A stretch of 37,652 bases of DNA. It comes from Nitrosopumilales archaeon. GTDB lineage: Archaea; Thermoproteota; Nitrososphaeria; Nitrososphaerales; Nitrosopumilaceae. The position numbers and the translations under genes were made by a program. Below the pieces are notes generated by a model. That model made no database searches, was not told the origin of the DNA, and saw nothing but the letters and a program-made list of their open reading frames with translations. Location: NCBI GenBank assembly GCA_016838845.1, contig JAEHKV010000081.1:1-37652 (forward strand). Direction: 5' to 3'. This document shows, one piece after another, positions 2,130 through 31,936 of this stretch (position 1 is its first letter; each line of letters opens with the position of its first letter).

Positions 2130-2173
2130 TCATTTTTGACATTTATCTAGGACACCGAGATACTATTACTGCC

Positions 2174-4120: not shown

Positions 4121-4173
4121 ATAGGAACGTCTTTGACACAATCCTATGTTAATTTTCGTATACTATACAATGT

Positions 4174-4511: not shown

Positions 4512-4565
4512 ATCACCTCTTTGTAGGATTTCTCCCTCGCGCAGCTATTTTTGGAGTTAGCATAG

Positions 4566-5156: not shown

Positions 5157-5269
5157 CTCCAATCAAGAACCAAGAAAACAAAAGCGAGTTGGAGTCTTTC
5201 AATGATTTGAATGAATTGTTATTTTTTGTCACAAAATTAACCCAAAAGTGTAAGAGCTGTACCGAATGA
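5153..5269 (+). CDS. Short orphan protein in element operon
   Basis: 38 residues starting at TTG 5153 inside the HNH stop (TTGA overlap) and ending inside the next start (ATGA). The overlap at both ends is the main reason to accept it. It has a helical middle (LESFNDLNELLFFVTKL) and ends CKSCTE. A longer reading of the same frame from 5081 would overlap the HNH gene by 75 nt and is less likely. Function unknown. Confidence 0.45.
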   Translation: MTPIKNQENKSELESFNDLNELLFFVTKLTQKCKSCTE

Positions 5270-5520
5270 AGGAACCATTCAATCTGTCGCAAACATACAG
5301 GAATCACTTGAACGACAAAATAGACCAGGGTTATGATTTTAGTTTAAGGAGTGATAGGAAAGCTGACCTGTTAGAATTTTGTGAAACATACAACCTGGAT
5401 CCTGATGTAGCACGCTACACAATTTCTAAGGTAAGAAAGCAAGTCTTCAAGAAAAGAGGCTTTGATCTGTATGATCTCGGTTACGGCAGATATTATCCTT
5501 ACAGATGGGTTTACACATGA
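5266..5520 (+). CDS. Orphan basic protein, operon member
   Basis: 84 residues, mostly helical with a Tyr/Arg-rich C-terminus (GFDLYDLGYGRYYPYRWVYT). Overlaps its upstream neighbour by ATGA and precedes the recombinase. Net basic and rich in Arg/Lys, so DNA binding is possible (for example as a directionality factor for the recombinase next door), but no known fold is recognised. The pattern of overlaps from 4174 to 5527 supports one polycistronic message. Confidence 0.55.
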   Translation: MKEPFNLSQTYRNHLNDKIDQGYDFSLRSDRKADLLEFCETYNLDPDVARYTISKVRKQVFKKRGFDLYDLGYGRYYPYRWVYT

Positions 5521-5550
5521 TCATAACTTGGGAGGGGAAAAATTTTTTCG

Positions 5551-6483: not shown

Positions 6484-6521
6484 TTTTTTGGCATTTTGCG
6501 ATATCACAATTTGTTACAATT

Positions 6522-6709
6522 AGCTACAATAGCTAATGTAGCTTTTTCTCCATGCGTAACATAGCTGTCACAAACAGCTTTTGTTACGCACAAAACAGCT
6601 ACAAAAGCTGTTTGTAGCTAATTGTGGTGCGCCACATCGCTGTTTTTAGCTATTTTGCGGTAGCTATAGCTATAACAAACAGCTGCAAATTGTAGCTAAT
6701 TGTGGTGCG
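6522..6709. repeat. AGCT-dense repeat field
   Basis: Thirteen AGCT tetramers lie in 176 bp (first 6522, last 6694). Nested inverted repeats include GCGTAACA (6554-6561) with TGTTACGC (6582-6589) enclosing AGCTGT/ACAGCT, and ACAGCT (6595-6600) with AGCTGT (6606-6611). A 20-bp direct repeat at 6612-6631 recurs at 6690-6709 (core TAGCTAATTGTGGTGCG). No ORF. Candidate replication origin, operator array or structured RNA. This is the main content of the 6484-6842 gene-free stretch. Confidence 0.75.
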
Positions 6710-6726
6710 TAAAGAAAATGTTCGCT

Positions 6727-6755
6727 TTCGGGTAATCTTAGTATGATTACCCGAA
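6727..6755. repeat. Perfect 11-bp inverted repeat, TAATC/GATTA family
   Basis: TTCGGGTAATC pairs with GATTACCCGAA across a 7-nt loop. Longest of six related hairpins in the element. It lies between the recombinase and the fusion gene, so it could be a terminator or operator. Confidence 0.75.
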
Positions 6756-6842
6756 CACGAAAACTTGAGATATAGCCAAAAATTTTGGGTCAACCTTTAT
6801 TCTAATCGATTAAAATATTTGGATGGAGGATGATTATTCCTT

Positions 6843-7757
6843 ATGACAAAAACTTGTTTTATTATATCATCTATTGGTAAGGAAGATTCTGAAACTAGAG
6901 CGGTGGCAGATGAAAAGTTTGAGTTAATTTTTGAACCCGCGTTAAAAGAAGCAGGATATAAAGTGACTAGAGCAGATAAAATAGGAACACCTGGTTCTAT
7001 TTCTAGAGAAATTGTTTCAAATGTAATTAATTCAGATTTAGTAATTGCTGATGTTACAGATGAGAATCCTAATGTTTTCTATGAATTAGCTATTCGCAAT
7101 GCTGCCAAAAAACCAGTAATTATTTTCAGAGGAGTAAATCAGCCCATGCCCTTTGATATTTATGATAAACGTGCTATTGATATTGATAGAAATCAACCGA
7201 GAATTTGGGAAAACGCCAAGAAAGCACTAAAAATCCACATTCAGGGAGCTGAGAAAAAACCTGAATTAGCATCCGAATCTATTTTGACAAATTTTACGTT
7301 TCAATTAGATACAGAAAAACAACCAAGTAATACAGATGAAATGTATTACATATTACGAGATTTACAACAACAAATTAGTAAAATCCCCAAATCATCTACA
7401 GATCGATATATTAGTCCTCAAGAACGTAAAATTAAAGCTGTAACAGAATCTGTACCTGAACATCTTATGGTTCGTATTACTCCTGGTTCTTCTGTTCCAG
7501 GATGTGAAAACACACATGATTGTTTTGATCCAAACATTTTGGAAATAAAACAAGGAGAAACTGTTTTGTGGTTGAATGAAGATACTGCAGCACATACAGT
7601 GACTAGTGGAACCGCAGCTGATGGTCCCAGCGATGATTTTGACAGTAGTTTATTCATGTCGGGTAATACATTTAGTCATGAGTTTGATTTTCCTGGAGAA
7701 TTCCATTATTTCGATATGGTTCATCCTTGGATGGAAGGGACAATAATAGTCAAGTAA
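6843..7757 (+). CDS. NDT/TIR-like enzyme domain fused to a cupredoxin domain lacking the copper Cys
   Basis: 304 residues. Residues 1-120 match the nucleoside 2-deoxyribosyltransferase/TIR-like fold used in many defence effectors: CFIISSIG, IADVT (68-72) and NPNVFYELA with the likely catalytic Glu81. Residues 125-215 are a linker. Residues 216-304 are a cupredoxin domain with His251, His294 and Met297 at the expected spacing, but Asp291 stands where the copper-binding Cys belongs (YFDMVHPWM). No signal peptide, so it should be cytosolic, unlike normal cupredoxins. The domain is about 60% identical to the host cupredoxin at 2-328. GGAGG lies 14 nt before the ATG. Role inferred: a nucleotide- or NAD-processing effector with a mimic or sensor domain. 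Confidence 0.8.
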   Translation: MTKTCFIISSIGKEDSETRAVADEKFELIFEPALKEAGYKVTRADKIGTPGSISREIVSNVINSDLVIADVTDENPNVFYELAIRNAAKKPVIIFRGVNQPMPFDIYDKRAIDIDRNQPRIWENAKKALKIHIQGAEKKPELASESILTNFTFQLDTEKQPSNTDEMYYILRDLQQQISKIPKSSTDRYISPQERKIKAVTESVPEHLMVRITPGSSVPGCENTHDCFDPNILEIKQGETVLWLNEDTAAHTVTSGTAADGPSDDFDSSLFMSGNTFSHEFDFPGEFHYFDMVHPWMEGTIIVK

Positions 7758-7784
7758 TTCGTAATCTGTACTAGGATTACGAAT
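7757..7784. repeat. Perfect 10-bp inverted repeat after the fusion gene
   Basis: ATTCGTAATC pairs with GATTACGAAT across an 8-nt loop and begins at the last base of the fusion stop codon. Member of the element-specific TAATC/GATTA hairpin family; placement suits a terminator. It is followed by a tail (AGTTCAAATCTCAAC) that recurs after the copy at 8991. Confidence 0.75.
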
Positions 7785-7886
7785 CAGTTCAAATCTCAAC
7801 GGATTTACTATTTGTGGGTTTAATCAATCAATAATGAATATGGTTTGTTGGAGATTAAATAAATTCTATATACTCCAAAGTACATT

Positions 7887-8366
7887 ATGACACCAATTGA
7901 AGAAAGACTTCTTCAGCTAAAAGCAGACGCTGAAGAATTAAGAATAACATCTGAAGAAAGCGAAATTGGATTTAACAAAGTAAAAGATTTCATTGCCGTA
8001 ATAGGTAAAATAGATATTAAAACGAAGAAAGGAAAAGAAGCATTTCAAGAAGGATCTAGAAAAATCTTAGATGCAGAATTAGATTATCTCAGAGATAAAT
8101 CCAATATAATTCGAAAAGTGTCTCCAAAAACTGCGGAGTTTCTAGAAAACAAAATCAATGATTATGAAAAATCTGCAAGATATGTTTTAGAAAAATTATT
8201 AGAAAATAATTCTGATGGTTCATCGGCAATGGACGATCTAGGTACTTTGTTTGCAGTTGCAAAAGTAATCTATTACATGGGTCATCTACAAGGTATTGTT
8301 TCAGTAGCTTGTGACAGCTTCTTAGATACTATAGATTACTTAGAAGGAAACAAAGTTATCAAATGA
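7887..8366 (+). CDS. Orphan helical protein downstream of the fusion
   Basis: 159 residues, almost entirely charged amphipathic helix (EERLLQLKADAEELRITSEE, KSARYVLEKLL), with a more hydrophobic C-terminal helix (FAVAKVIYYMGHLQGIVSVA). No motif recognised and no signal peptide. It has its own AT-rich upstream region 130 bp after the fusion gene and is followed by another TAATC/GATTA hairpin. It could be the partner of the fusion protein, but only proximity suggests this. Confidence 0.6.
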   Translation: MTPIEERLLQLKADAEELRITSEESEIGFNKVKDFIAVIGKIDIKTKKGKEAFQEGSRKILDAELDYLRDKSNIIRKVSPKTAEFLENKINDYEKSARYVLEKLLENNSDGSSAMDDLGTLFAVAKVIYYMGHLQGIVSVACDSFLDTIDYLEGNKVIK

Positions 8367-8419
8367 CAATCAAAGGTCAAAATAGTTACTACTCCCGTAG
8401 TCCTATCTAAGATTATGTC

Positions 8420-8442
8420 GGATAATCCTGTATAGATTATCC
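8420..8442. repeat. Inverted repeat GGATAATC/GATTATCC
   Basis: Perfect 8-bp arms with a 7-nt loop between two convergent genes (7887-8366 and 8467-8910). A partial copy (GATTATG) lies just upstream at 8411. Candidate terminator of the hairpin family. Confidence 0.65.
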
Positions 8443-8466
8443 AATAGAGGAATTTATTAAAAATAT

Positions 8467-8910
8467 TTAATCTGATAGAAAATTGCCAATTATTTGAAAA
8501 CCAAAACCAAGTATAAGTAAGAAAAATCCCCGGGCAAGAAAACGATACTTGTCAACAGAGCCTACTCTTTGACTTGCAACCACTGCAATTGCCTCATCCC
8601 CTTTTTGCCCAATTCTTTTTACTCTATTTGCCAGCTCAGGAATCAGCACCACAGTTACTCCAGTTATGTCCAAAATTAATCCCATAATTATTAAGTTTCC
8701 ACCAAGATCTTTTTGTCCAATAATACTATCAGGAAAAATAACTGAAAATGCAGCTAGACCAAATGCGATTATAACTCCTCCTAAAATTACTCCCCAAGCC
8801 GCTGTTACAGGATTATTTTTTTTCATTTGGTCATTATCAATTCCATTATGCAAATCATGTCTTTCTTCTCCACGTCTTACTTTTTTACATTTACCATTAT
8901 TACAGTACAA
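8467..8910 (-). CDS. Small multi-pass membrane protein
   Basis: Up to 147 residues with three hydrophobic helices (AAWGVILGGVIIAFGLAAF, a second around LIIMGLILDITGVTVVLIP and a C-terminal FFLLILGFGFQIIG). The cytosolic loop between helices 2 and 3 is basic. The long form uses TTG at 8910 and adds a polar N-terminus with CNNGKC; ATG at 8826 (MKKNNPV) is equally plausible. Function unknown. It is convergent with the helical protein at 7887. Effector systems often pair a cytosolic toxin with a membrane protein, but nothing here proves that. Confidence 0.6.
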   Translation of the reverse strand: MYCNNGKCKKVRRGEERHDLHNGIDNDQMKKNNPVTAAWGVILGGVIIAFGLAAFSVIFPDSIIGQKDLGGNLIIMGLILDITGVTVVLIPELANRVKRIGQKGDEAIAVVASQRVGSVDKYRFLARGFFLLILGFGFQIIGNFLSD

Positions 8911-8990
8911 TAAGATCTCTTTAATGCTAAAATTAATAAAATAACAGGCATGCCTGTTAAGTTCCGCTACCGTTTAGGAACTATTTTGGG

Positions 8991-9007
8991 TAATCATAGT
9001 AAGATTA
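8991..9007. repeat. TAATC-N7-GATTA hairpin (degenerate copy)
   Basis: Five-bp arms with loop ATAGTAA in the divergent region between the membrane-protein gene and the nuclease gene at 9258. It is followed by AGTTCAAATCTCAAC, the same tail as after the 7757 copy. Confidence 0.55.
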
Positions 9008-9108
9008 TACGAAGTTCAAATCTCAACAGATTCACTCATTGTTCTTTTCGTTTGTTATTGCCAACCTACAAAAATTATATTCCACTTCGCTTTATCAGAT
9101 AGAAAAGC

Positions 9109-9166
9109 CAAGGGGCTAGTGAATCGAAGCGAGGAAGAACGGGAGACAGTTCCTCCAAGCCCCTTG
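9109..9166 (+). ncRNA. Candidate structured RNA with nested stems
   Basis: CAAGGGGCT (9109-9117) pairs with AGCCCCTTG (9158-9166), and inside it GAGGAA (9131-9136) pairs with TTCCTC (9150-9155). A third palindromic run (GATCTTGATCGATC) follows at 9170-9183. The region 8945-9257 has no ORF and is locally more GC-rich than its surroundings. It could be an independent RNA, a leader of the 9258 gene, or a DNA-binding site; strand is uncertain. Confidence 0.4.
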
Positions 9167-9257
9167 ACCGATCTTGATCGATCAACTGGTCGTATTTAGG
9201 CTTTAATTGTTCGGCTTCGTCTCATTGTTCTTCTTCTCGAGACTAACTGTAATGTAA

Positions 9258-10745
9258 ATGGAATCAAGCTTTAATTTTGGCACACTACAAGATTACTCGT
9301 TGCTTCTAGAGGAGGTTCTCCCACACCTAAAAAACACCTACAAATCAATTGACTTGCGCATAGCGTGCGTTTTGTATGAAGGAAAATGGCACAATCTCTT
9401 CACATTGATTCGCTTCACAAATGACGATGTCAGTTTATTGGATAAACAACTGACGAAAAAACCACAATTAAGCCAACTAGGCAAGGGTGTAAATTTTAGA
9501 ATATTCTTTCGTCACCTCTCTTTAACGGAATTTGAAGAATTAACTACCGATCTTATAAAAGGTTCAATCAAAGCTGATGACACCACAATTCAGTATGAAC
9601 CAAGCGACATCAAAAAATTCTCTGTTCACTTAAGCCATAGATCAACTGCTTCCGGAAACTCGCCAGCCTTTTTTACCACAAGTCAGACAAAAAGCAACAT
9701 TCCAGATAAGTGGAACAACTTTTATGATTCCGTGAAGAGTGATGTCATTCCCCTTGGGTGTGAAGATGCTTTTGAGGCGATAAAACATTTCTTCGATTAC
9801 AGCGACTATGGGCGTTCTTCCAATTATGATTTGGCAATAGCGGCTCCTGTATATGGCAAGGTAGAGGAAATGAAGCTTGAAATCAGGAAAGCAAGAATCA
9901 CTGTGCGTTATCACAAGAATCTAAACGGTTTGTATCTGCATTACAAAAGATACAATCAACTACAGAGTTCTGATATTCAACAAGTATGTGTTTTTGCACA
10001 AAATGAAGGAATCACAAAAAATGAGGGCGATTTTAACATCTGGCAGATTGAAGCAGACGATTTAGATTTAAGTGGCCAGTCGTATGAGAATTTTGCATGT
10101 GAGGCAGAACTATTTTCCAAGCCTCTGAATAGTCTGATCTCTGATTTATCAAGACTGGTAACAGAATTGATTGCTGAGAAAAAGATGCTGGAGACCAATC
10201 CACTGGCAAAAATATTTGCAAAGTTTTGCCCGATTGACCAATTCACGAAAATGCTGGTTAATCCAACAAATGTGGGAATAAGCAATTTCAAATTGAGTGA
10301 AACTGATAATTTCGAGCGTGTGACACAATGGTTGTTTTCCCTGCATGGGTTTCAGGGAATTTGGCTCGGAAAAGATTACGAAAAAATTACAGATGCACGA
10401 AAACGCACGGATGAATCAGTGGATTTGTTATGTTATAGCGAGAAAGAAAAGGCACTTGCCTTAGTAAATTGCAAAACTAGCGTTCCAGATGAAAAACACA
10501 TTGATCTTGCCAAAAATCTTGCTAACAAAATCAGTCAAGATGTTAAAGACTTGGGCATAAGAGTAGTACCAATTATTGTCTCCTCAAAACCATGTCAAAC
10601 TATCAAAAATGTTGGTTTGAAGGTTGGTGTTGACATAATCGATGTAGATGATATCCAACGAATTGTTTCAAAAATTTATGAAGGGCCACCTACTCCAGGT
10701 CTTCTGTTACGCACAATCAGAACTTCTTCGACAATAGGAGCATGA
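9258..10745 (+). CDS. Large PD-(D/E)XK-type nuclease-like protein
   Basis: 495 residues. The N-terminal 330 residues are not recognised. The C-terminal domain has the layout of a restriction-type nuclease: Glu in FERVTQWLF, Asp389 in ESVDLL, and then NCK at 404-406 at the end of a beta strand (ALALVNCKT), followed by a helix and strand (VVPIIVSS) as in Mrr-like enzymes. The position that is normally Glu, Asp or Gln is Asn404, so activity is uncertain. Its place beside the R-M genes suggests a DNA-targeting role. ATG start at 9258. Confidence 0.6.
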   Translation: MESSFNFGTLQDYSLLLEEVLPHLKNTYKSIDLRIACVLYEGKWHNLFTLIRFTNDDVSLLDKQLTKKPQLSQLGKGVNFRIFFRHLSLTEFEELTTDLIKGSIKADDTTIQYEPSDIKKFSVHLSHRSTASGNSPAFFTTSQTKSNIPDKWNNFYDSVKSDVIPLGCEDAFEAIKHFFDYSDYGRSSNYDLAIAAPVYGKVEEMKLEIRKARITVRYHKNLNGLYLHYKRYNQLQSSDIQQVCVFAQNEGITKNEGDFNIWQIEADDLDLSGQSYENFACEAELFSKPLNSLISDLSRLVTELIAEKKMLETNPLAKIFAKFCPIDQFTKMLVNPTNVGISNFKLSETDNFERVTQWLFSLHGFQGIWLGKDYEKITDARKRTDESVDLLCYSEKEKALALVNCKTSVPDEKHIDLAKNLANKISQDVKDLGIRVVPIIVSSKPCQTIKNVGLKVGVDIIDVDDIQRIVSKIYEGPPTPGLLLRTIRTSSTIGA

Positions 10746-10786
10746 TGTAAAGACTTTGGTTCATTCTGATTTTTTATGAGGTTTAA

Positions 10787-11188
10787 TTGATAATCTCTAA
10801 TGACATAACTGATGCATTTGAATATTTAGCTTTTACGGCAGTATTTATAAAAAGTTTAGAAGATTATCTTTCTGATGAAAAAAATATTGATGAAAAAACT
10901 TTTTCAAAGAATTTTAAGGTAACAGTAAATGCAATAAACTTTAACTTTAATAGTTATCATAAATCTAGAATGAAATACTCGGAAACAATAAAAGATATTG
11001 TATCTCAGATTATTACTTTAGAATCTAGTTTTTTTGAGACAATGGATTTATTATCGCCGTTGAGTACTGCCAAAATTACTAAACTTCAAACTATTATAGG
11101 AAGTCTTCAAGAATTAATTTTATCTAAAATCCCTAAAAATTCTAAGGAATATAAACATCTCCAAAAAGAATTTCCAGGTAAATTATGA
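10787..11188 (+). CDS. Orphan helical protein next to nuclease
   Basis: 133 residues from a TTG start (a weak choice; no ATG is well placed). All-helical and charged (EYLAFTAVFIKSLEDYLS, YSETIKDIVSQIITLESSFF), with no recognised domain. It begins 42 nt after the nuclease gene in the same direction, so it could be an accessory protein of it. Followed by a TAATC/GATTA hairpin at 11244. Confidence 0.5.
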   Translation: MIISNDITDAFEYLAFTAVFIKSLEDYLSDEKNIDEKTFSKNFKVTVNAINFNFNSYHKSRMKYSETIKDIVSQIITLESSFFETMDLLSPLSTAKITKLQTIIGSLQELILSKIPKNSKEYKHLQKEFPGKL

Positions 11189-11243
11189 TAAGCAAGTGAT
11201 CATTACACAAAGTAACAAATCTTAGCAGATTTGCACTTCTGTA

Positions 11244-11260
11244 TAATCTATGCAGGATTA
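11244..11260. repeat. TAATC-N7-GATTA hairpin
   Basis: Arms TAATC/GATTA with loop TATGCAG, in the gap between two convergent genes; a second GATTA lies at 11281. Terminator-like placement. Confidence 0.55.
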
Positions 11261-11305
11261 CTCGACATAGTCTTAGATAGGATTATGAAACTACGTTTAA
11301 AGTGA

Positions 11306-11959
11306 TCATGCTTTGTATTCTTCGATGATTTTTTTCAGTTTATCAGTATACTTTGAAGGATCATCTGATTTCACATCAAGCTGACCGTTTTCTGCGCCGG
11401 TTATGATTACTATCTGTCTAATCCTTTCACCGGTCTGCTCTTCCCACGCAGTTGCATAGAATGTTGCTTGGAGAAGATAGTTCTCGTTTGTTTCATCACG
11501 TATCTTTGACGAAGTCTTAAAGTCAATCGTGGATAGCTCTCCATCAAAATCTGCAATGCAGTCTGTCCTTCCTGCAACACCCAGGTTTACACTGTATAAT
11601 GCCTTCTCCAATGCCCTGATTTTATTAATTTTATCAAGTGCTGGTCTCATCAAACTAAACAAGCCAGCTGCAAGTATACCGTGTTCTCCAACAAGATCAT
11701 TTTGTGGTTCGTTTGAAAGATACAATTCTACTATTTTGTGCAGCTTACTACCACGAATGGATGCAATTCGCATCGCATAATCAGCTATGTCATCTCCTAC
11801 AGACTCCCTCCAATCCAAAATCTCCTGTGGTGTCAAAGACGACAAGAGAGTTGTAATTGAAATGAATGTGCCATGAGGAGTTTCATAATGTCTTTTTCCG
11901 TCAATGTTGATTTGCTTTATTTGTGGAAGTTCTTGGGATGGTAAGTGGGCAAATGCCAT
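11306..11959 (-). CDS. RecB/Cas4-type PD-(D/E)XK exonuclease-like protein
   Basis: About 217-222 residues. Counting from the upstream GTG (11974): His79 in GSKLHKIVELYL, Asp138 in AGRTDCIADFDG, IDFKT with Asp151/Lys153, and Gln169/Tyr173 in QATFYATAW. This order (H, GxxD, D-x-K, Q-x3-Y) is the signature of phage-type RecB/MGME1-like nucleases that degrade or trim single-stranded DNA ends. ATG at 11959 (MAFAHLP) is preferred to GTG at 11974. Encoded opposite to the R-M genes. Likely used in element replication or recombination. Confidence 0.75.
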   Translation of the reverse strand: MAFAHLPSQELPQIKQINIDGKRHYETPHGTFISITTLLSSLTPQEILDWRESVGDDIADYAMRIASIRGSKLHKIVELYLSNEPQNDLVGEHGILAAGLFSLMRPALDKINKIRALEKALYSVNLGVAGRTDCIADFDGELSTIDFKTSSKIRDETNENYLLQATFYATAWEEQTGERIRQIVIITGAENGQLDVKSDDPSKYTDKLKKIIEEYKA

Positions 11960-12114
11960 GATCTTTTGGAACACTTCAAATAATAAAAGCTAGTTTCTTT
12001 CTTTCATCTTTTTTCCACAGCCATTTTCATCAAATCATCACGATAACTTCATGCTAAAAAGCGATCTTATGAATACAAAGTAAGAGAAATAGACATCAAT
12101 ATCCAATATCTCTC

Positions 12115-12537
12115 ATGGCAGATATTTTCACCAAGGAGAAAAGATCATGGGTTATGTCTAGGATCCGTGGGAAGGACACCAAGATCGAGATTAGGATGAA
12201 TGAGATCCTGCAAGAAACTGGAACCAAATACCGAAAACATCCTGAGATGTATGGCAATCCTGACTTTGTTGTAAAGGAAGAAAAAATTGTAATTTTCTGT
12301 GACGGTGACTTCTGGCACGGCTACAATTATCGTAAGAAAAGGAAGCCCCCTCAGAAATTCTGGCGTGAAAAAATCAACAGAAACATGAAGAGGGATGTTA
12401 GAATTAGTAGAAAACTTAGAAGGCAGGGCTGGTCTGTCCTGAGGTTCTGGGAGCACGACATTGAAAAGAGGCCTCGAGTCTGCGCAGGAAAAATCAAAAG
12501 AAAGATCAAAGAGAGGGGTTTGTCAACACAGCAGTAA
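12115..12537 (+). CDS. vsr: Very-short-patch repair endonuclease (Vsr)
   Basis: Cuts beside T:G mismatches produced when 5-methylcytosine deaminates, and so protects sites methylated by a C5-methyltransferase. 140 residues, the usual family length. Visible signatures: SRIRGKDT (15-22), the metal-binding Asp50 in GNPDFV, FCDGDFWHG with His68 (61-69), and WSVLRFWEHDI near the end. It lies 36 nt upstream of a C5-methyltransferase gene in the same direction, the classical pairing. Confidence 0.92.
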   Translation: MADIFTKEKRSWVMSRIRGKDTKIEIRMNEILQETGTKYRKHPEMYGNPDFVVKEEKIVIFCDGDFWHGYNYRKKRKPPQKFWREKINRNMKRDVRISRKLRRQGWSVLRFWEHDIEKRPRVCAGKIKRKIKERGLSTQQ

Positions 12538-12575
12538 AAGATTATTTTTTATTCCATTGAACTTTTAATATTGTG

Positions 12576-13751
12576 ATGCAAATAGTCGAGTCAAAGGCAA
12601 AATCAAAGCATGGCACCCCTACTGTACTCTCGCTATTTACTTGCGGAATGGGGATGGATCTGGGTTTCGAAAAGGCTGGTTTTGAGATAGTCTATACCAA
12701 CGACATAGCCAAATTTGCTTGTGAGACCATAAGAGCAAACAGGCCCAAAATATTGTGTGATGAGGGAGACATAATTGAAATTCCAACTAATGAAATCTTG
12801 AAAAAAATTGGTCTAAGAGATAATAAAATAGATGTAATTATTGGGGGGCCACCATGTCAATCATTTTCAACAGCTGGAATGCGGAATGGTTTTTCTGACA
12901 AACGAGGAATCGCATTACTAGAGTTTATCAGGATTGTTAAAGAAACAAGGCCAAAAATTTTCATCTTTGAAAATGTTGCTGGTTTAAAATCAATGCCAAA
13001 AAAACATGTGTCATTTTATGAGCGGCTGAAACAAAAAAAGAAAAAACTTTCAAAAGAGCAACAGTATGGATCACTCTTTGAAGAAATCCTTGAAAGATTT
13101 GAATCAATAGAAGGATACAAAGTTGACTGGGACATCCTAAATGCGGCAGACTTTGGAGTTGCACAAAAAAGAAAAAGGCTAATCCTTATTGGCTCACGGA
13201 AATTTTCCCCAACAAAAACTCTTGAAGAAATTAAGAATAATGCAGTATTCGCTGACCCAAAAATTGCTAATAAAGTTGGTAAGCGAAAATGGAAAAATCT
13301 AAGACAAGCACTAAAGGGATTAGAAGATAAAGAAAAAGAATGCACTAGGTTTCCAAAATGGGGAAAATACCTCAAACATGTTCCTCCAGGAGGATGTTGG
13401 GTCGATTTGCCAAAGTCAATGCAGAAAAAAGCAATGGGAGGAGCTGCAGATACTACTGATCCTTTAAGGAAAGGAAAACAGGGAGGTAGGAGAGGATTCT
13501 TTAGAAGGTTGAGTTGGGACGAACCATCACCAACTCTAGTAACTTCACCAACTCAGATGGGAACCTGCTTGTGCCATCCCAATGAAAACCGACCACTAAC
13601 TGTAAAAGAATATGCAAGACTACAAGATTTCCCAGACAATTGGAATTTTGTTGGCTCTACACACCAAAAATATAGGATGATAGGGGAAGCGATTCCAGTC
13701 AAGCTTGCGGAAGCTATTGCTTCCGTTACCTACGACCATTTAAGAAGATAA
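12576..13751 (+). CDS. DNA (cytosine-5-)-methyltransferase
   Basis: Full-length modification enzyme. Numbered from the GTG at 12573, the motifs are: I at 22-29 (FTCGMGMD, with Cys where Gly is common), IV at 91-100 (GGPPCQSFST, catalytic Cys95), VI (FENV), VIII (QKRKR), IX (RRLSWDEPSPTL) and X (MIGEAIPVKLAEAI). The target-recognition region lies between VIII and IX (about 220-310). ATG at 12576 is chosen over GTG at 12573. With Vsr upstream and a probable restriction enzyme at 13842 it forms a type II R-M system. Recognition sequence cannot be told from the sequence. Confidence 0.95.
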   Translation: MQIVESKAKSKHGTPTVLSLFTCGMGMDLGFEKAGFEIVYTNDIAKFACETIRANRPKILCDEGDIIEIPTNEILKKIGLRDNKIDVIIGGPPCQSFSTAGMRNGFSDKRGIALLEFIRIVKETRPKIFIFENVAGLKSMPKKHVSFYERLKQKKKKLSKEQQYGSLFEEILERFESIEGYKVDWDILNAADFGVAQKRKRLILIGSRKFSPTKTLEEIKNNAVFADPKIANKVGKRKWKNLRQALKGLEDKEKECTRFPKWGKYLKHVPPGGCWVDLPKSMQKKAMGGAADTTDPLRKGKQGGRRGFFRRLSWDEPSPTLVTSPTQMGTCLCHPNENRPLTVKEYARLQDFPDNWNFVGSTHQKYRMIGEAIPVKLAEAIASVTYDHLRR

Positions 13752-13841
13752 TCACAGCTGAACTAAAATTATCAAATTAATTACAATCGAGTCATAAATT
13801 ACTGATACTTCGCATTTTAGGTAATTACAAAAGTAGTAAGC

Positions 13842-14537
13842 GTGTCACGTGACGAACAGATTAAGAAACCACTGGAGGACTTTATCACACGTGCTGCAGA
13901 AATAATTGATGAGCTGTCTGCAGAAAAAATGATTAGCGAAAGTGCAATCAATCCAATTCTTGCACAAGCATTAGGCTTTAGTGATTTTCGCTCCCTAGCT
14001 AGGTTCTATGTGTATCAGAGAATAAGTAGAAGCCTCGTAACAAGTTTTGGCACACATATGGAAAATTTAGTCAAATCAATAATAGATGGTGAAAAAGGTG
14101 ACTGGTGGGACGTTGTGAAGAAGAGCTCAAAAATAAATTATTATGTCTCAGTAAAAAGTGGCCCAAGGGATATGAACAAAGACCAGACTGTCGAGTTTTC
14201 ACGACGGGCCAAAAGAATTATGGAAGAAGATCCAAAAGCACTACCTATAATCGCAATGGGTTATGGTAAAAAGGCATGGCCAGTAATTACTGACACATTA
14301 AAAAACCAAGGTCTAGACCCCAATAAACATAGTTATGTTGGAAAAAATTTGTATACACTGCTAACTGGTGACAAGAACTATTACAAAAAATTACTAAACA
14401 TAGTAGTCAATGTTGAGTCCAAAGTTATAGGGAAAAAAACAATCCTACAACTAATGGATGAGAAAGTTGATGAAATTGCAAAAGAGTTCAAAAACAAATA
14501 CAAGAATGTTGATGAACTTCTATCGGATACATTCTAG
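13842..14537 (+). CDS. Probable type II restriction endonuclease
   Basis: 231 residues starting at GTG, 90 nt after the methyltransferase. The middle has a likely metal site: Glu74 (THMENLV), Asp90 (WWDVV) and Lys105 at the end of a strand (YYVSVKSGP), which fits the PD-(D/E)XK order; the strand residue two before Lys is Ser rather than Glu. The block FYVYQRISRSLVTSFGTHME resembles restriction enzymes that NCBI names after PmeII; this is from memory and unverified. Its position after vsr and the methyltransferase is the strongest evidence. Confidence 0.6.
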   Translation: MSRDEQIKKPLEDFITRAAEIIDELSAEKMISESAINPILAQALGFSDFRSLARFYVYQRISRSLVTSFGTHMENLVKSIIDGEKGDWWDVVKKSSKINYYVSVKSGPRDMNKDQTVEFSRRAKRIMEEDPKALPIIAMGYGKKAWPVITDTLKNQGLDPNKHSYVGKNLYTLLTGDKNYYKKLLNIVVNVESKVIGKKTILQLMDEKVDEIAKEFKNKYKNVDELLSDTF

Positions 14538-14562
14538 TTATACCCCTTTATATGATGATACA

Positions 14563-14587
14563 GGCATAAAACAAACGTTTCATTTTT
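14563..14587 (+). repeat. Diverged direct repeat, left copy
   Basis: GGCATAAA then ACGTTTCATTTTT recurs with a small insertion at 15404-15434, next to the right att site. The two copies bracket the genes at 14684 and 15109. A shorter TTCATTTTTG also lies at the left att site (2129-2138). Possible integrase arm sites or the scar of a cassette insertion. Confidence 0.4.
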
Positions 14588-14683
14588 AACATGAATTTCT
14601 TTACACTCACATTCTTTTTGGTTTAATTTTGTACTATGCTAGGAAGTAAGTGATATTACATTATACATAATATACTGATTTGA

Positions 14684-15094
14684 ATGGAAGAAGAAAAAAT
14701 AGTAAACGAAATAAGTGCAATAGATAGAAATGTTGGATTACTTGCAGGCCAAATAGTTCAATCCCTAAAAAATAAAATTTTTTTTGTAGCATTCTGTGGG
14801 CTGTTCACTCTTGCAGAAAATTCACTTATTGCGCAGTATAAAGAAAAAAAGACATTTCAAGTGTTGATTAAGGAAGCATTTGATAGCAATGTAATCGATG
14901 AACCTGAGAAGTTAATTCTAGACCACCTTAGGCAATTTAGAAAACTCACTATTCACTCAGATCCACAACAGACTTCGTATATCCTGGGAGGAACTGTGTA
15001 CGCCTTCAACGAAGATTCAACTTATGAATTCCTAATGAAGAGATTCTCAATTGATGTTTTGAATACTATAAAGAAAATTGTGATGAGTAAGTAA
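14684..15094 (+). CDS. HEPN-like helical protein (tentative)
   Basis: 136 residues, helical. The segment HLRQFRKLTIHSDP contains Arg86-x4-His91, the spacing of the HEPN RNase active site, placed after a long helix as in HEPN proteins. HEPN domains act in abortive-infection and toxin-antitoxin systems by cutting RNA. No MNT-type antitoxin is adjacent; the next gene is a zinc-ribbon protein 14 nt downstream. The motif is short, so this is a suggestion. Confidence 0.45.
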   Translation: MEEEKIVNEISAIDRNVGLLAGQIVQSLKNKIFFVAFCGLFTLAENSLIAQYKEKKTFQVLIKEAFDSNVIDEPEKLILDHLRQFRKLTIHSDPQQTSYILGGTVYAFNEDSTYEFLMKRFSIDVLNTIKKIVMSK

Positions 15095-15108
15095 TCGTAA
15101 TTTCTTGA

Positions 15109-15282
15109 ATGAAACAGAAGATTTTTAGATGGAATTCAGGTACTGGATTTCCTATGCCATATGAAATACCTATAGACAAACTTCGTTCTTGCAATGACTG
15201 TGGTTGCGTGTATGTGGATCAACCAGATTTTACAAAATGCCCAGTATGTGGTGGTTTAGCAAGAAATAAAATAGTAAAATAA
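15109..15282 (+). CDS. Small zinc-ribbon protein
   Basis: 57 residues. Two Cys pairs, CNDC and CPVC, about 20 residues apart form a typical zinc ribbon near the C-terminus; the N-terminus (KQKIFRWNSGTGFPMPYEIP) is unrecognised. It starts 14 nt after the HEPN-like gene, probably in the same transcript. It is the last gene before the right att site. Partner or regulator of the preceding protein is possible. Confidence 0.6.
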   Translation: MKQKIFRWNSGTGFPMPYEIPIDKLRSCNDCGCVYVDQPDFTKCPVCGGLARNKIVK

Positions 15283-15382
15283 AAAATAATTTTTCTTGTA
15301 ATAATAATTTCTTTTATGAAATTACTAGAAAAACTGCCATCCTATATTCAAGAGAGAAAATTGTAGCTTAATCATGAACGGG

Positions 15383-15399
15383 TAATCAAAGTAAGATTA
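15383..15399. repeat. TAATC-N7-GATTA hairpin, rightmost copy
   Basis: Arms TAATC/GATTA with loop AAAGTAA, 40 bp inside the right end of the element. Same family as 6727, 7757, 8420, 8991 and 11244. The gap 15283-15439 holds nothing else but the diverged repeat at 15404. Confidence 0.55.
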
Positions 15400-15403
15400 T
15401 GTA

Positions 15404-15434
15404 GGCATAAAGCCAAAAGACACGTTTCATTTTT
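15404..15434 (+). repeat. Diverged direct repeat, right copy
   Basis: Partner of 14563-14587. Shares GGCATAAA and ACGTTTCATTTTT and ends five bases before the att repeat. Confidence 0.4.
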
Positions 15435-15439
15435 GCCCA

Positions 15440-15458
15440 GAATCCCTCTAGACCCGCT
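15440..15458 (+). repeat. attR of element 1 / probable attL of a tandem element
   Basis: Exact 19-bp copy of 2111-2129. A shorter 9-bp copy (TAGACCCGC) follows at 15478-15486. The integrase at 15503 starts 45 nt after the core, the same distance as integrase 1 from its core, so this site also looks like the left end of a second element. Confidence 0.85.
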
Positions 15459-15502
15459 ACGTAAGTTGGTCTTAAAATAGACCCGCCTGTACCTAACATT
15501 AA

Positions 15503-16693
15503 ATGCAAATTTCAATTAAGGATGTACATGCCAGAGAAGATCCATACCGACTCTTCCTTGATTCCATAAAAAACTCTGACACCAGAAGAAAATACAAAAA
15601 CATCCTTTACAGGTTTTTAAAACTAATCCCAAACCAGTTTTATGAAGATTCCATAGGCCATTCACCTAAAAACACTAAAATCGAAACTCTTGCCAAGTCG
15701 TTTGTATATCTTACAAAGAATGATCCGAAATTAGCTCAAAATATCATAGCAACATTCATCAAAGAAGAGAAAAAGCTAGTAGAATCTGGTGAGTTAAACC
15801 CAAACACTTTATCAAATCACATCAAACCCATCAAAGCATTACTTGATGCAAATTCAATTGCATTACATTGGAAAACACTCCATAAATTGTATCCAAGACC
15901 AAAAAAGACACAAGATCGAGCCTATACTAGACAAGAATTACAGCAAATGATAGAAGCTTCACCTGACATTACAGACAAGCTAATAATTCAGTTATTTTCT
16001 TCAGGTGGGTTTCGATTAGAAGCATGGGATTATTTCACTTGGAAGGATGTGATATTTTTCAAAAATGATGATAATTCCTACCAAGGGGCCGCCTTGCTGG
16101 TTTACAGAGGCGACCCTGAAAGCTATTGGACGTTTATTACTCCAGAAGCATGCCACACATTAGACCATTATAGAGAGGTTTGGAAGTCAGACATCGGAAG
16201 ATATCCAAAACCAGATGAACCTTTGATCAAATCTGTTAGATTCCCTGTAATTCGAAGACTAAATGCGTTGGGTGTAAAGCGAAGAATTCAAAAAATTGTA
16301 AAAAAGATTGGTCTACGACCTTCATTACCAGAAGGAAAGAAGAGACATGATGTTCCTTTAGATCATGGCTTTAGAAAATATTTCAACACAATGATGAGAC
16401 GTGCCAAGGTTAACTATCTGGACAAGGAGGACATGATGGGCCATTCTGTGGGGCTTGAAAAACATTATGAAAGATATCAAGAAGAAGATTTTGAAAGATT
16501 TCCAGAGTATCAAAAAGCAATTCCATTTTTGACAATCTCTGATACAGAACGAATTAGATTAGAAAATCAGCAGTTAGAGAAAGAAAAATCAGAACTTGAA
16601 ATGCAAAAAGGAAAAGTTGTAAAATTTGAATTAGATATGAAAGAAATGCAGGAGAAAATCCGAATTCTTGCAGAAAAGTTACTGGTCGAATAA
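15503..16693 (+). CDS. int: Second tRNA-Lys-type tyrosine integrase
   Basis: 396 residues, homologous to the 2174 integrase and with a full active site: Arg171 (SGGFRLEAW), HGFR with His288/Arg291, His314 (MMGHSVG) and Tyr322 (KHYERY). The C-terminus (about 345-396) is a Glu/Lys-rich coiled coil, as in integrase 1. ATG at 15503, 45 nt after the att core. The gene is intact although little else of its element is visible. Shared blocks with integrase 1 include NPNTL...KPIKAL and RAYTRQE. Confidence 0.92.
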   Translation: MQISIKDVHAREDPYRLFLDSIKNSDTRRKYKNILYRFLKLIPNQFYEDSIGHSPKNTKIETLAKSFVYLTKNDPKLAQNIIATFIKEEKKLVESGELNPNTLSNHIKPIKALLDANSIALHWKTLHKLYPRPKKTQDRAYTRQELQQMIEASPDITDKLIIQLFSSGGFRLEAWDYFTWKDVIFFKNDDNSYQGAALLVYRGDPESYWTFITPEACHTLDHYREVWKSDIGRYPKPDEPLIKSVRFPVIRRLNALGVKRRIQKIVKKIGLRPSLPEGKKRHDVPLDHGFRKYFNTMMRRAKVNYLDKEDMMGHSVGLEKHYERYQEEDFERFPEYQKAIPFLTISDTERIRLENQQLEKEKSELEMQKGKVVKFELDMKEMQEKIRILAEKLLVE

Positions 16694-17056: not shown

Positions 17057-17282
17057 ATTTTGTGCCTGAAACTGTAAATTGTGATAGCCTTACTATAATG
17101 TTCCCGACATTTTCACATTGTCACATTTAGAAAATAAAAAAAATCAATTAGGTAATACTGAAACAGATGAATCCCAGTCGCTTGTACACCTTATAACAAA
17201 TCAACATCTTAACCACAATTTCGGGTCTAAACTAATCCCATAAACGGTGTGAGTCTTAACAGTTCCGAACTTGTTTAATCCT

Positions 17283-17301
17283 GAAAATTCTTAATTCTTA
17301 G
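17283..17301 (+). promoter_or_regulatory. GAAAATTCTTAA box, 36 nt before start of 17319 gene
   Basis: GAAAATTCTTAATTCTTAG begins exactly 36 nt before the ATG. The same distance is seen at three further genes, so this is probably a TATA-type promoter giving nearly leaderless mRNA. Confidence 0.65.
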
Positions 17302-17318
17302 AATGAGTTAGAAAAATC

Positions 17319-17438
17319 ATGACTAATGATGTTTGTCTTTTCTGTAAAAGAATGATTTCAGATCATACAAAAGAGGAATCCATACACTGTGCAATAAAAA
17401 TCTGTCATGGTGGTCAAGAAAATGAAGAAGAATTCTAA
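17319..17438 (+). CDS. Tiny C-x2-C-x6-H-x7-C microprotein
   Basis: 39 residues: CLFC at 6-9, His16 and Cys24, the same spacing as 4389, 16861 and 17620, then a further Cys and an acidic tail (GGQENEEEF). Promoter box 36 nt upstream. Its stop region supplies the promoter box of the next gene. Function unknown; probably one zinc-bound mini-domain. Confidence 0.6.
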   Translation: MTNDVCLFCKRMISDHTKEESIHCAIKICHGGQENEEEF

Positions 17439-17455
17439 AAATTCTTAATTCTTAG
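17437..17455 (+). promoter_or_regulatory. AAAAATTCTTAA box, 36 nt before start of 17473 gene
   Basis: Same box as at 17283, starting on the stop codon of the 17319 gene and 36 nt before the next ATG. Confidence 0.65.
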
Positions 17456-17472
17456 TTTGACATAGAAACTTT

Positions 17473-17595
17473 ATGCCTGTCTGTGAAAGATGCGGTGAGC
17501 CAGCTTCTCAAAGTATTACATGGGACGAAGCGAAGGGCGTAACTAGAATACATTATTATTGTAAAAAACATAATCCAAAGTCTGAAAATTCTTAA
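17473..17595 (+). CDS. Small Cys/His protein
   Basis: 40 residues. Cys4/Cys7 (CERC) and Cys30 with His33 (CKKH) could form one zinc site of a C2-C-H type. The spacing differs from the C-x2-C-x6-H-x7-C family. The last codons (SENS) encode the promoter box of the next gene. An ORF on the opposite strand (17452-17691) is a shadow. Function unknown. Confidence 0.55.
   Translation: MPVCERCGEPASQSITWDEAKGVTRIHYYCKKHNPKSENS
17584..17595 (+). promoter_or_regulatory. GAAAATTCTTAA box inside the end of the 17473 gene
   Basis: The box overlaps the stop codon of the upstream gene and lies exactly 36 nt before ATG 17620. The second half of the motif (TTCTTAG) is missing. Confidence 0.55.
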
Positions 17596-17619
17596 ACGAT
17601 TTCGTTGTAACATTATGTT

Positions 17620-17772
17620 ATGACAGAGCCATCTAAACCAAAAGAAGGGGATGAAGTCTGTCCCATGTGTGGAAGACCAAAAAGTAAACATTCTTCCGAA
17701 GAATTACTTACATGCTCTCGTAAGATGGGAGAGTTTAAGAAAAATACTATTGGTGGGGCTGGAATTGAATGA
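17620..17772 (+). CDS. C-x2-C-x6-H-x7-C microprotein, 50 residues
   Basis: CPMC at 14-17, His24 and Cys32 reproduce the family spacing exactly. The 13-residue N-terminal extension is charged and the C-terminus is polar (GEFKKNTIGGAGIE). Promoter box 36 nt upstream. A nearby ATG at 17614 is followed at once by a stop and is not used. Confidence 0.65.
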   Translation: MTEPSKPKEGDEVCPMCGRPKSKHSSEELLTCSRKMGEFKKNTIGGAGIE

Positions 17773-17794
17773 ATATTTACAAACTGTTAATTCT

Positions 17795-17813
17795 GAAAAT
17801 TCTTAATTCTTAG
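17795..17813 (+). promoter_or_regulatory. GAAAATTCTTAA box, 36 nt before start of 17831 gene
   Basis: GAAAATTCTTAATTCTTAG again 36 nt before an ATG. The 26 bp from 17793 are identical to 34183-34208, where no gene follows at that distance. Confidence 0.65.
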
Positions 17814-17830
17814 TTTAATCTAGTAAAGAC

Positions 17831-18082
17831 ATGTCAGATAATTCAGCATACTATGTTGATATGAAAATATCAGATTGGGAGATAGTACCAAAATCAGAGA
17901 TAGATGAACCTAAATTGATCGCGTTAGTAGAAAATGCATCCATTGAAGCAACTTCTACTGATGGCAATAAGAGAACTATTCATTTTAAGAAAGGATCTGT
18001 AATTAAAGTTGTTAAAAATCCCAGTGGTGGTTCCACTATTTGGGATCCTGTAGATGTTTTAATTGATACATCCACAAGATAA
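17831..18082 (+). CDS. Orphan small protein
   Basis: 83 residues, beta-rich and polar (KLIALVENASIEATSTDGNK, TIHFKKGSVIKVVKNPSGG), suggesting a small SH3-like or barrel-like fold. No family recognised. Fourth gene behind the 36-nt promoter box, hence probably co-regulated with 17319, 17473 and 17620. It converges on the AsnC-like gene at 18098. Confidence 0.55.
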   Translation: MSDNSAYYVDMKISDWEIVPKSEIDEPKLIALVENASIEATSTDGNKRTIHFKKGSVIKVVKNPSGGSTIWDPVDVLIDTSTR

Positions 18083-18097: not shown

Positions 18098-18337
18098 TTA
18101 CTCTAGACCCTCTATTGTCATTAGCGTTAGCGTTGATCTTACCCTGTTTAATTTTCTAATTTTCCAGATAATTGTATCCCTTAGAATGTCTGCATTAGCT
18201 GACTCAAGCTTTACAACAATATCATAGGCACCATAAACTCCGCGGACTTCCTTTACATCCTCAACCTGTTTTATCTCATGAACTATTTCTGTATCAAATC
18301 CCAAATCACAACTAACTAAAACATAAGCCATTGCCAT
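18098..18337 (-). CDS. Stand-alone Lrp/AsnC ligand-binding domain protein
   Basis: 79 residues matching the C-terminal RAM half of Lrp/AsnC regulators (AYVLVSCDLGFDTEIVHEIK, VKEVRGVYGAYDIVVKLE), with no helix-turn-helix. Such proteins bind amino acids and can modulate full-length Lrp proteins or enzymes. The 3' end contains CTCTAGACCC, a 10-bp match to the att core, on the plus strand at 18101-18110. An amino-acid catabolic cluster lies downstream. Confidence 0.85.
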   Translation of the reverse strand: MAMAYVLVSCDLGFDTEIVHEIKQVEDVKEVRGVYGAYDIVVKLESANADILRDTIIWKIRKLNRVRSTLTLMTIEGLE

Positions 18338-18548: not shown

Positions 18549-18566
18549 AACTTAAATTCTTAATTC

Positions 18567-18588
18567 ATATTCTAAATATTTAGAATAT
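18567..18588. promoter_or_regulatory. 22-bp perfect palindrome
   Basis: ATATTCTAAAT followed by its exact reverse complement, about 80 bp before the secreted-protein start at 18660. Likely a dimeric regulator site. Confidence 0.5.
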
Positions 18589-24348: not shown

Positions 24349-24372
24349 TTAACATTTGATACGAACTGTTAA
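24349..24372 (+). repeat. TTTGATACGAAC hairpin, stem TTAACA/TGTTAA
   Basis: Perfect 6-bp stem around the invariant 12-nt loop, in the convergent gap after the acyl-CoA dehydrogenase. Confidence 0.75.
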
Positions 24373-24423: not shown

Positions 24424-24666
24424 TTACTGACCCTTGGCCAAATTCTTGGCAGCAGTGTCTCTCTCCTCATTGGCGACTCCATCTGCATCTATAGCTGCGC
24501 TTCTTTTGTTCATGTTTACGTCTCGGTTTTCACTTGTGTCATCAGGGTTGTTGATGTTGGCATCATTTCGTGCAGCATCAGCTTCACCAATAAGATCTGG
24601 CGTTAGTGCCACCAATACTAGTGGCAAGATTGCGAGCAATCCTATGTATTTTGTTATTTGTTTCAT
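24424..24666 (-). CDS. Small secreted protein with shared MKQ leader
   Basis: 80 residues. Leader MKQITKYIGLLAILPLVLVA followed by LTPDLIGEADAA is nearly identical to those of 26269 and 28869. The mature part is hydrophilic and Asn/Asp-rich (NDANINNPDDTSENRDVNMN) with no Cys. The conserved upstream block AAATGATATTTTTCAA starts exactly 64 nt before the ATG, as in 26269, 28869 and 31279. Function unknown; probably an abundant envelope or extracellular peptide. Confidence 0.75.
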   Translation of the reverse strand: MKQITKYIGLLAILPLVLVALTPDLIGEADAARNDANINNPDDTSENRDVNMNKRSAAIDADGVANEERDTAAKNLAKGQ

Positions 24667-24699
24667 TGTTCTTTTATGAGTAAAAGTAGCAATAAGATG

Positions 24700-24730
24700 A
24701 GCTAAGAATAGTTGTTGAAAAATATCATTT
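24700..24730 (-). promoter_or_regulatory. Shared promoter block upstream of 24666 gene
   Basis: On the minus strand AAATGATATTTTTCAA then CTTAGCT, 64 nt before the ATG; same arrangement as at 26205, 28805 and 31215. Confidence 0.65.
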
Positions 24731-24771
24731 GGTGTTTAATGGGAATATTCAAGACTAAAAATTCAGTACAG

Positions 24772-26160: not shown

Positions 26161-26204
26161 GATGATTAAATGTGAAAAAAAGTAGATATCATCAGCTAAA
26201 CTTC

Positions 26205-26238
26205 AAATGATACTTTTCAAGACACTTTCCTAGCTGAT
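26205..26238 (+). promoter_or_regulatory. Shared promoter block upstream of 26269 gene
   Basis: AAATGATACTTTTCAA then CCTAGCTGAT, starting 64 nt before the ATG. ATCAGCTA at 26191-26198 is the exact reverse complement of TAGCTGAT at 26231-26238. Confidence 0.7.
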
Positions 26239-26268
26239 CTTAACACTAATTTTCATTATTAAGAAACA

Positions 26269-26499
26269 ATGAAACAAATAATCAAATACGTGGGATTGCT
26301 CGCAATTCTACCTCTATTCTTGATTGTACTGGCACCTGACTACATTGGCGAGGCTGATGCAGCAAAAGCACAAGGAAGCCCTGGCCAGCAATCACCAAAG
26401 TCCTATGGATCAGCAACTGATGACATAGTATGTGGCGACAAACTATGTAGCACACCTGAAGGTAGCGAAGATCCAACAAACGTAGGTAGAGCAAGTTAG
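26269..26499 (+). CDS. Small secreted protein with shared MKQ leader and VCGDKLCS motif
   Basis: 76 residues. Leader MKQIIKYVGLLAILPLFLIV then LAPDYIGEADAA, cleaved probably after ADA. The mature part has GSPGQQSPKS and a terminal motif VCGDKLCS that also occurs twice in the 28869 protein; its two Cys may form a disulfide or bind metal. Promoter block at 26205. Function unknown. Confidence 0.75.
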   Translation: MKQIIKYVGLLAILPLFLIVLAPDYIGEADAAKAQGSPGQQSPKSYGSATDDIVCGDKLCSTPEGSEDPTNVGRAS

Positions 26500-28760: not shown

Positions 28761-28804
28761 AGTTTATCTATTGTGAAAATTTATGATAAGTCCAACTAAA
28801 CTCA

Positions 28805-28837
28805 AAATGATATTTTTCAATATCTTTTCTTAGCTGA
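28805..28837 (+). promoter_or_regulatory. Shared promoter block upstream of 28869 gene
   Basis: AAATGATATTTTTCAA then CTTAGCTGAC, starting 64 nt before the ATG. Confidence 0.7.
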
Positions 28838-28868
28838 CATTATCCCTACTTGTCTGTTAAGAAGGGCA

Positions 28869-29336
28869 ATGAAACAAATATTAAAATTCATAGGATTGCT
28901 CGCAATCTTGCCACTAACATTAGTAACAATAAGTCCAAACTTAGTTGGTTATGCCGACGCAGTAAATGTCGGAAGTCAAGATGTTAGCCGCCCTGGCCAG
29001 CAATCTGATAAAGTATGTGGAGACCGCCTTTGTTCTGGAAATGATGGAGTAAATGTAGGCGGTCAAGATGTAATTGGACGCTCAGGATACCAGCCTGATA
29101 AAGTATGTGGAGATAGATTATGTTCAGACTCTGCATCCGCCAGTTCGGCAAAGAGTGAACAGAAACTATCAAAATCTACTGGAAGCGTTGAATATGATGC
29201 CTTAAGTGCCCAACTTGCAGAAAAAACTATGGAACTAAGCATTGCCAATGCAAACGGTGACTCTGATAAAGTTGCAGAATTACAAGACGAACTAAAAGAC
29301 ATTCGAAACCAAATTGCTGAGTGGAAAAATAATTAG
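28869..29336 (+). CDS. Secreted protein with shared leader, duplicated VCGDRLCS motif and coiled-coil tail
   Basis: 155 residues. Leader MKQILKFIGLLAILPLTLVT then ISPNLVGYADAV. The mature part carries an internal duplication, VNVGSQDV...DKVCGDRLCSG and VNVGGQDV...DKVCGDRLCSD. It ends in a coiled coil (YDALSAQLAEKTMELSIANA, VAELQDELKDIRNQIAEW). The VCGDxLCS motif links it to 26269. Likely an extracellular oligomer; function unknown. Confidence 0.75.
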   Translation: MKQILKFIGLLAILPLTLVTISPNLVGYADAVNVGSQDVSRPGQQSDKVCGDRLCSGNDGVNVGGQDVIGRSGYQPDKVCGDRLCSDSASASSAKSEQKLSKSTGSVEYDALSAQLAEKTMELSIANANGDSDKVAELQDELKDIRNQIAEWKNN

Positions 29337-31879: not shown

Positions 31880-31903
31880 TTTACATTTGATACGAACTGT
31901 AAA
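31880..31903 (+). repeat. TTTGATACGAAC hairpin, stem TTTACA/TGTAAA
   Basis: Perfect stem just after the ArsR-like gene; followed by TCCTGAAAATTCT, the start of the AT-rich tail also seen after the 34156 copy. Confidence 0.75.
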
Positions 31904-31936
31904 TCCTGAAAATTCTCCCATCTTTTTTATTCAAAA

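Follow-up and report, generated by a model that had tools for sequence, protein, structure and literature searches.

Archaeal and sedentary chromosomal integrons, in the account of Ghaly et al. 2022 (PMC9668308), hold tandem units of one or a few genes, small and often of unknown function, between co-oriented sites that are homogeneous within a genome, and integron cassettes are described in PMC6393395 as promoterless. The dif modules of Acinetobacter (pdif/XerCD) are presented in PMC6449649 as gene modules between imperfectly palindromic sites of ∼25–28 bp. Repetitive extragenic palindromes (REPs) and bacterial interspersed mosaic elements (BIMEs), with their REP-associated tyrosine transposases (RAYTs), are outlined in PMC2817692 as short intergenic imperfect palindromes in ∼100 copies, and the mobile elements integrated in Thaumarchaeota, as classified in PMC6563490, enter site-specifically at short attachment (att) sites (median 17 bp). 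We compared with these systems a stretch of 37,652 nucleotides from a Nitrosopumilales archaeon (assembly GCA_016838845.1, contig JAEHKV010000081.1, positions 1 to 37,652), referred to as a whole as the window. Here a short box, RAAAATTCTTAA, precedes four consecutive small genes, and we consider it probable that the four boxes are the joints of an integron-like array of mobile gene cassettes. This system, built on two repeats termed A and B, resembles integron arrays and dif modules in the way it works and has the defining properties of neither. Literature searches on cassettes and integrons of archaea or Thaumarchaeota, and on their repeats and recombination sites, brought up no account of such a system among papers judged mainly from their abstracts.

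The box is exact at all four places on the forward strand, and an ATG follows 36 nt after each box start (Table 1), just as the sequence-only reading of this DNA had stated. It had also rightly noted that two boxes overlap preceding stop codons: the one starting at 17437 shares nucleotides with the stop codon of gene 1 (17436–17438), and the gene 2 stop (17593–17595) lies inside the box at 17584. A fifth exact copy in the window lies at 34185. With up to one mismatch, the window alone holds 7 boxes against 4.08 expected, a weak excess that is not clearly above chance; chance is instead excluded by the genome-wide count of exact boxes, which is 74 (62 on the + strand and 12 on the − strand) compared with 9 for a reversed-pattern control. 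The box belongs to a longer repeat, B (TTAATCCTGAAAATTCTTAATTCTTAG), which is near-invariant over 18–20 nt; alignment of its sites gives TTAATCCTGAAAATTCTTAA, often followed by TTCTTAG.

We compared the position of the box with the promoter geometry of the genome in 90 loci (712,532 nt), the set that also served for the +36 spacing, start-codon, insertion/deletion, covariation, rotation and density counts below. Ahead of 521 ordinary open reading frames (ORFs) without B, TATA-like words (TTATA, TTTAA and TTAAA) peak at −30 to −27 before the ATG and are enriched from −30 to −25, TTATA at −29 being found 11 times against 1.4 expected. In genes 1–4 of the window, GAAAA or AAAAA occupies −36 to −32 and CTTAA(T) −29 to −24, the GAAAA of the box standing upstream of CTTAA(T) at the position expected of a B recognition element (BRE). 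This is, by sequence only, the arrangement of a leaderless promoter, with BRE/TATA ∼27 nt ahead of the start codon. When the gene is forward, B carries a predicted BRE/TATA-like promoter at the leaderless distance of this genome, and a promoter at this standard distance within B would explain the 36 nt. Such per-unit predicted promoters do not exclude read-through across genes 1–4, for which separate transcription of each gene, and not a single operon, had been proposed.

These observations could also mean that the box is the promoter of a co-regulated regulon and nothing else, with gene shuffling unrelated to it; the regulon might be served by one among the numerous TFB paralogues that these archaea have. 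In line with this, the box coincides with the TATA position of the genome, and +36 is the favoured distance to a start codon: 15 of 102 B sites have an ATG opening an ORF of 30 aa or more exactly there, compared with at most 4 at any other offset from 13 to 89. Yet only 24 of 105 B sites have any start codon there (17 of 66 in genome G000, 4 of 17 in G201, 3 of 16 in G203, 0 of 3 in G202 and 0 of 3 in others) and 81 have none, so that the spacing is shared by a minority of boxes and extends only in part to other genes of the genome. Many boxes are followed by genes on the opposite strand, and 18–20 near-invariant nucleotides are more than a promoter consensus comprises.

The second repeat, A (ATTWACATTTGATACGAACTGTTAA), has sharp borders and a length of ∼25 bp, and many B sites lie directly 3′ of an A. 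The A.B joints fall mostly into one or two registers, with offsets of 19 and 20 (printed as 15 and 16 for the minus strand, the two patterns differing by 4 in length), and read GTTTAATCC or GTTAATCC before B. With up to two mismatches, A occurs 85 times in this genome and B (as a 22-mer) 44 times. Neither repeat was found in any of 200 further genomes of the order, and A reversed, as a control, gave 0. All four genomes of the genus, which probably belongs to Nitrosopumilaceae-like ammonia oxidisers, contain A (18-mer, up to two mismatches; 89, 51, 120 and 104 sites), G202 having 133 sites when a 21-mer with up to three mismatches is used. B is present in the fetched loci of all four, although only three times in those of G202. 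Other dispersed repeats amounted to three 13-mers with at least 9 occurrences, all in one locus. The single match of A in viral contigs lies in a low-complexity repetitive region of one contig and was judged to be chance. A sequence resembling a tRNA 3′ half (reverse complement: GGTTCGAATCTATTGAGACCCGCACCA) often stands directly after A, for example in L022 (2950–3025) and L040 (10588–10640), and A read backwards resembles a T-arm (GTTCGTATC); this could hint at descent of A from a tRNA attachment site. A search of four sources against Rfam returned only tRNA.

Site placement and orientation were counted in 56 loci, the majority selected for containing sites. Of 185 A sites 181, and of 92 B sites 86, fell outside ORFs of 60 aa or more, and neighbours less than 4 kb apart had the same orientation in 104 of 113 pairs for A and 42 of 43 for B. 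The sites are in this respect like those of integrons, tandem and co-oriented between genes. The upstream ORFs within 300 nt, however, run either way (A, 98 same and 52 opposite; B, 35 same and 29 opposite). As a promoter or terminator would follow its gene, sites that are co-oriented among genes of both directions point to a possible recombination site. The median interval from one site to the next is 577 bp (5th to 95th percentile 133–2763; 197 intervals below 5 kb).

Units recur in different orders, and their homology ends at A or B. In a first count, which kept near-identical matches between overlapping fetched stretches, 19.9% of 964 ends (578 matches) lay within 5 nt of a site compared with 2.6% at random. 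A larger set, from which matches of at least 99.5% identity and matches within a locus had also been removed, gave 16.3% of 1792 ends compared with 1.9% when site positions were rotated (sd 0.4, maximum 3.1%, 200 rotations). Both counts left out matches shorter than 100 nt, and ends close to a locus end were dropped (within 60 nt in the first count, 150 nt in the larger set and the density). The density of ends per kilobase was 30.0 at sites, compared with 6.4 for other intergenic DNA (8.9 near sites) and 1.1 for genes; this excess over other intergenic DNA indicates that the effect is more than breaks falling between genes. That gene homology ends at B, that ends are 4.7-fold denser at A and B together than in other intergenic DNA, and that A behaves alike without promoter geometry all make a box acting solely as a promoter unlikely. 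What stands of the promoter first proposed is the TATA-like position and the 36-nt peak; the box is at the same time a cassette boundary, found before forward and reverse genes, at which homology between contigs stops.

The genes of the window cluster illustrate this recurrence in different orders. Among the loci searched, gene 2 has five copies including that of the window, with left neighbours that are unrelated up to B, and every copy ends in B. Copies of gene 3 lie in C169, C79, C116, G203:C53 and G203:C43, some with a diverged B or without B, and those of gene 4 in C5, C27, G201:C41 and G203:C53; gene 1 was found in the window only among the loci searched. In C27 the order is gene 2, B, gene 4, compared with gene 2, B, gene 3, B, gene 4 in the window, and in G201:C211 the diverged B-like end of a fifth cluster unit, a RAM-domain unit, is joined directly to gene 2. 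The G000 contigs C5 and C27 share the same terminal 141 nt, inside the gene 4 unit. This looks like an assembly fork and is expected of an assembly graph forking at a shuffled or repeated unit.

Some sites are found both filled and empty. With long flanks, an A..A arrangement is matched by a single A in L064/L062 (2.4 kb) and L065/L043 (1.55 kb), and in L104/L014 (1.2 kb) by an empty side with two neighbouring A and one B. In L052/L042, 331 nt are inserted into a target without A, the empty version reading AACTTG^TTCACG and the occupied one AACTTG^TTTAATCCTGAAAATTC ... GAGTTG^TTCACG. A further insertion, L021/L066, is flanked by a 24-nt sequence ending in TTAATCC, present as two diverged copies. 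We suggest that units of ∼130–2800 bp, mostly single genes, would move between short co-oriented sites, with A (ATTWACATTTGATACGAACTG) as the usual 3′ boundary and B as a common 5′ boundary. Their excision and insertion at A and B would be the work of a site-specific recombinase, and the type of exchange makes the tyrosine class probable. Exchange may take place at or near G^TT/TTAAT, common to the end of A and the start of B, as suggested by the L052/L042 insertion and compatible with a second insertion. A forward cassette would then bring its own transcription start, through the B promoter, wherever it is inserted.

An array of this layout with co-oriented sites and, in one case, exchange at G^TT might be a true integron, with an archaeal IntI and attC sites and with its integrase missing from the assemblies; archaeal integrons are known (PMC9668308). 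The integron integrase model TIGR02249 exceeded its cut-off in 0 of 4 genus genomes (best 33 bits compared with 265), an absence that is not final in assemblies 85–97% complete, and gave at most 33.7 bits for the five G000 recombinases. The consensus of attC is RYYYAAC for R″ and GTTRRRY for R′. A ends in GTTAAY; of 183 sites, 18% have a purine as the sixth base, and A is also a much shorter site than attC. A single-strand hairpin of A was considered and found no support: across 12 base pairs and 262 sites, pairing was about what the make-up of the columns gives (for (−1,18), Fisher p 0.08), and the TTAAC form folds with z about −4 whereas the TTTAC form does not fold. A site of ∼25 bp conserved as sequence, with pairing that lacks covariation, is the reverse of attC, and the cassettes here carry predicted promoters. 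We therefore regard a true integron as very improbable. Set against the integrons described in PMC9668308, the present system differs in having no IntI found, sites conserved as sequence and not as hairpin, forward units that often have a predicted boundary promoter, and sites also among core genes. It also departs from dif modules, which are defined by a 28-bp dif-like site of 11-6-11 layout and a Xer recombinase. The A sites are co-oriented and have a core of ∼25 bp that is conserved throughout, centre included, and XerA (NF040815) stayed below its cut-off (at most 93.3 bits compared with 220) in the five G000 recombinases, the only ones scanned.

Another explanation sees A and B as REP-like palindromes or miniature inverted-repeat transposable elements spread by a transposase, the shuffling being due to homologous recombination between copies. 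A is indeed intergenic, ∼25 bp long, imperfectly palindromic and present in 51–120 copies per genome. However, 25 bp is short for homologous exchange, and the palindrome of A pairs without covariation. The Y1 transposase (PF01797) was found in 0 of 4 genus genomes, the control search finding it in 5 of 14. The co-orientation of A and its position at gene-order breakpoints also contrast with the REPs outlined in PMC2817692, which alternate in BIMEs. We consider this explanation improbable. The integrated elements of Thaumarchaeota, in turn, are multigene elements or insertion sequences, and the five classes set out in PMC6563490 include no small cassettes with dispersed sites.

Several observations weigh against the cassette array. 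B stands directly ahead of A about ten times by eye, and a simple cassette with B at its 5′ and A at its 3′ end would not predict B.A. The 3′ end of the L052/L042 insert is an A in reverse orientation. Of 57 insertion/deletion events, only 26 have sites at both ends and 31 do not; many of the 26 are trivial, being 50–60 nt matches that are the sites themselves, and several long-flank indels have no site, such as 880 nt in L088 compared with the window. A also adjoins housekeeping genes, for example a chaperonin (named by eye), so that some A sites do not border a recent cassette. No recombinase was found to be common to all four genus genomes: matches to PF00589 (5 in G000, 1 in G201, 6 in G202 and 8 in G203) belong to several different families, and G201 has just one. 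All genomes are fragmented draft assemblies.

Three tyrosine recombinase ORFs lie in the window (2174–3499, 5527–6483 and 15503–16693). The last, just upstream of the cluster, was tried as the cassette recombinase and rejected, its relatives (49–76% identical) being on other contigs without A or B arrays. Among 19 loci with such relatives, 18 had neither repeat and L106 (Thaumarchaeota isolate B12T1B11) had a single A with two mismatches. These relatives are from Nitrosopumilaceae or thaumarchaeal records, except for one titled Alphaproteobacteria. This ORF probably encodes an integrase that belongs to an ordinary integrated element. The region 2054–16693 starts with tRNA-Lys(CTT), followed by the integrase ORF 2174–3499, the XerA-like recombinase 5527–6483 and the third recombinase. 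It also holds a Vsr-like ORF (12115–12537) and a cytosine-methyltransferase-like ORF (12576–13751), both named by eye. The whole probably represents one integrated element, or two, carrying a restriction-modification set.

Table 1. Boundary sites, cluster genes and further features of the window.
Feature	Position	Strand	Remarks
Divergent tyrosine recombinase	15503–16693	+	just upstream of cluster; PF00589, E 1.3e-4; 71% identical to C75 recombinase
CCGAACTTGTT			variant left half preceding B site 1
B site 1, TTAATCCTGAAAATTCTTAATTCTTAG	17275–17301	+	boundary and predicted BRE/TATA-like promoter; box 17283–17294
Gene 1, 39 aa	17319–17438	+	small cysteine/histidine protein, zinc-ribbon-like by eye; no match in Pfam or NCBIfam
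B site 2	17431–17455	+	box 17437–17448; overlaps gene 1 stop
Gene 2, 40 aa	17473–17595	+	CxxC protein; last codons and stop within B site 3
B site 3	17578–17595	+	box 17584–17595
Gene 3, 50 aa	17620–17772	+	CxxC/H protein; unit ends in degenerate A (ATTTACAAACTGTTAAT)
B site 4	17789–17813	+	box 17795–17806
Gene 4, 83 aa	17831–18082	+	no family
Fifth cluster unit	18098–18337	−	stand-alone Lrp/AsnC ligand-binding (RAM) domain; PF01037, 31.7 bits
Diverged B-like end of fifth unit	18554–18575	+	86% to B family
A site, exact	24352–24372	+	
A.B composite	31883–31918	+	A 31883–31903, B 31902–31918
A site, 2 mismatches	31939–31959	+	
A site, exact	32554–32574	+	
A.B composite	34160–34203	+	A 34160–34180; B with exact box at 34185
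A site, 3 mismatches	34999–35019	+	
A site, 1 mismatch	35341–35361	+	
A site, 3 mismatches	37183–37203	+	

The RAM-domain unit of the cluster is without a DNA-binding part and has many shuffled copies across the genus (L014, L024, L061, L064, L086, L088 and L095). Elsewhere in the window, a repeat of ∼170 nt occurs in both orientations at 24575–24744, 26197–26364 and 28791–28960, its copies being 75–78% identical.

Beyond the array itself, we tentatively propose that this is a form of archaeal cassette shuffling independent of integrons, in which a recombinase other than IntI may act on short double-stranded sites, the boundary doubles as promoter and each forward cassette may yield its own leaderless transcript. 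A boundary that is also a promoter would answer the problem that integron cassettes solve by a shared promoter. If this proposal is true, a lineage without detectable integron integrase attains the kind of modular gene exchange known from integrons. The variable gene pools of ammonia-oxidising archaea are large, and the route by which these are exchanged is mostly unknown; a genus-specific, self-promoting array would, if true, give them a concrete exchange mechanism with testable recombination sites.
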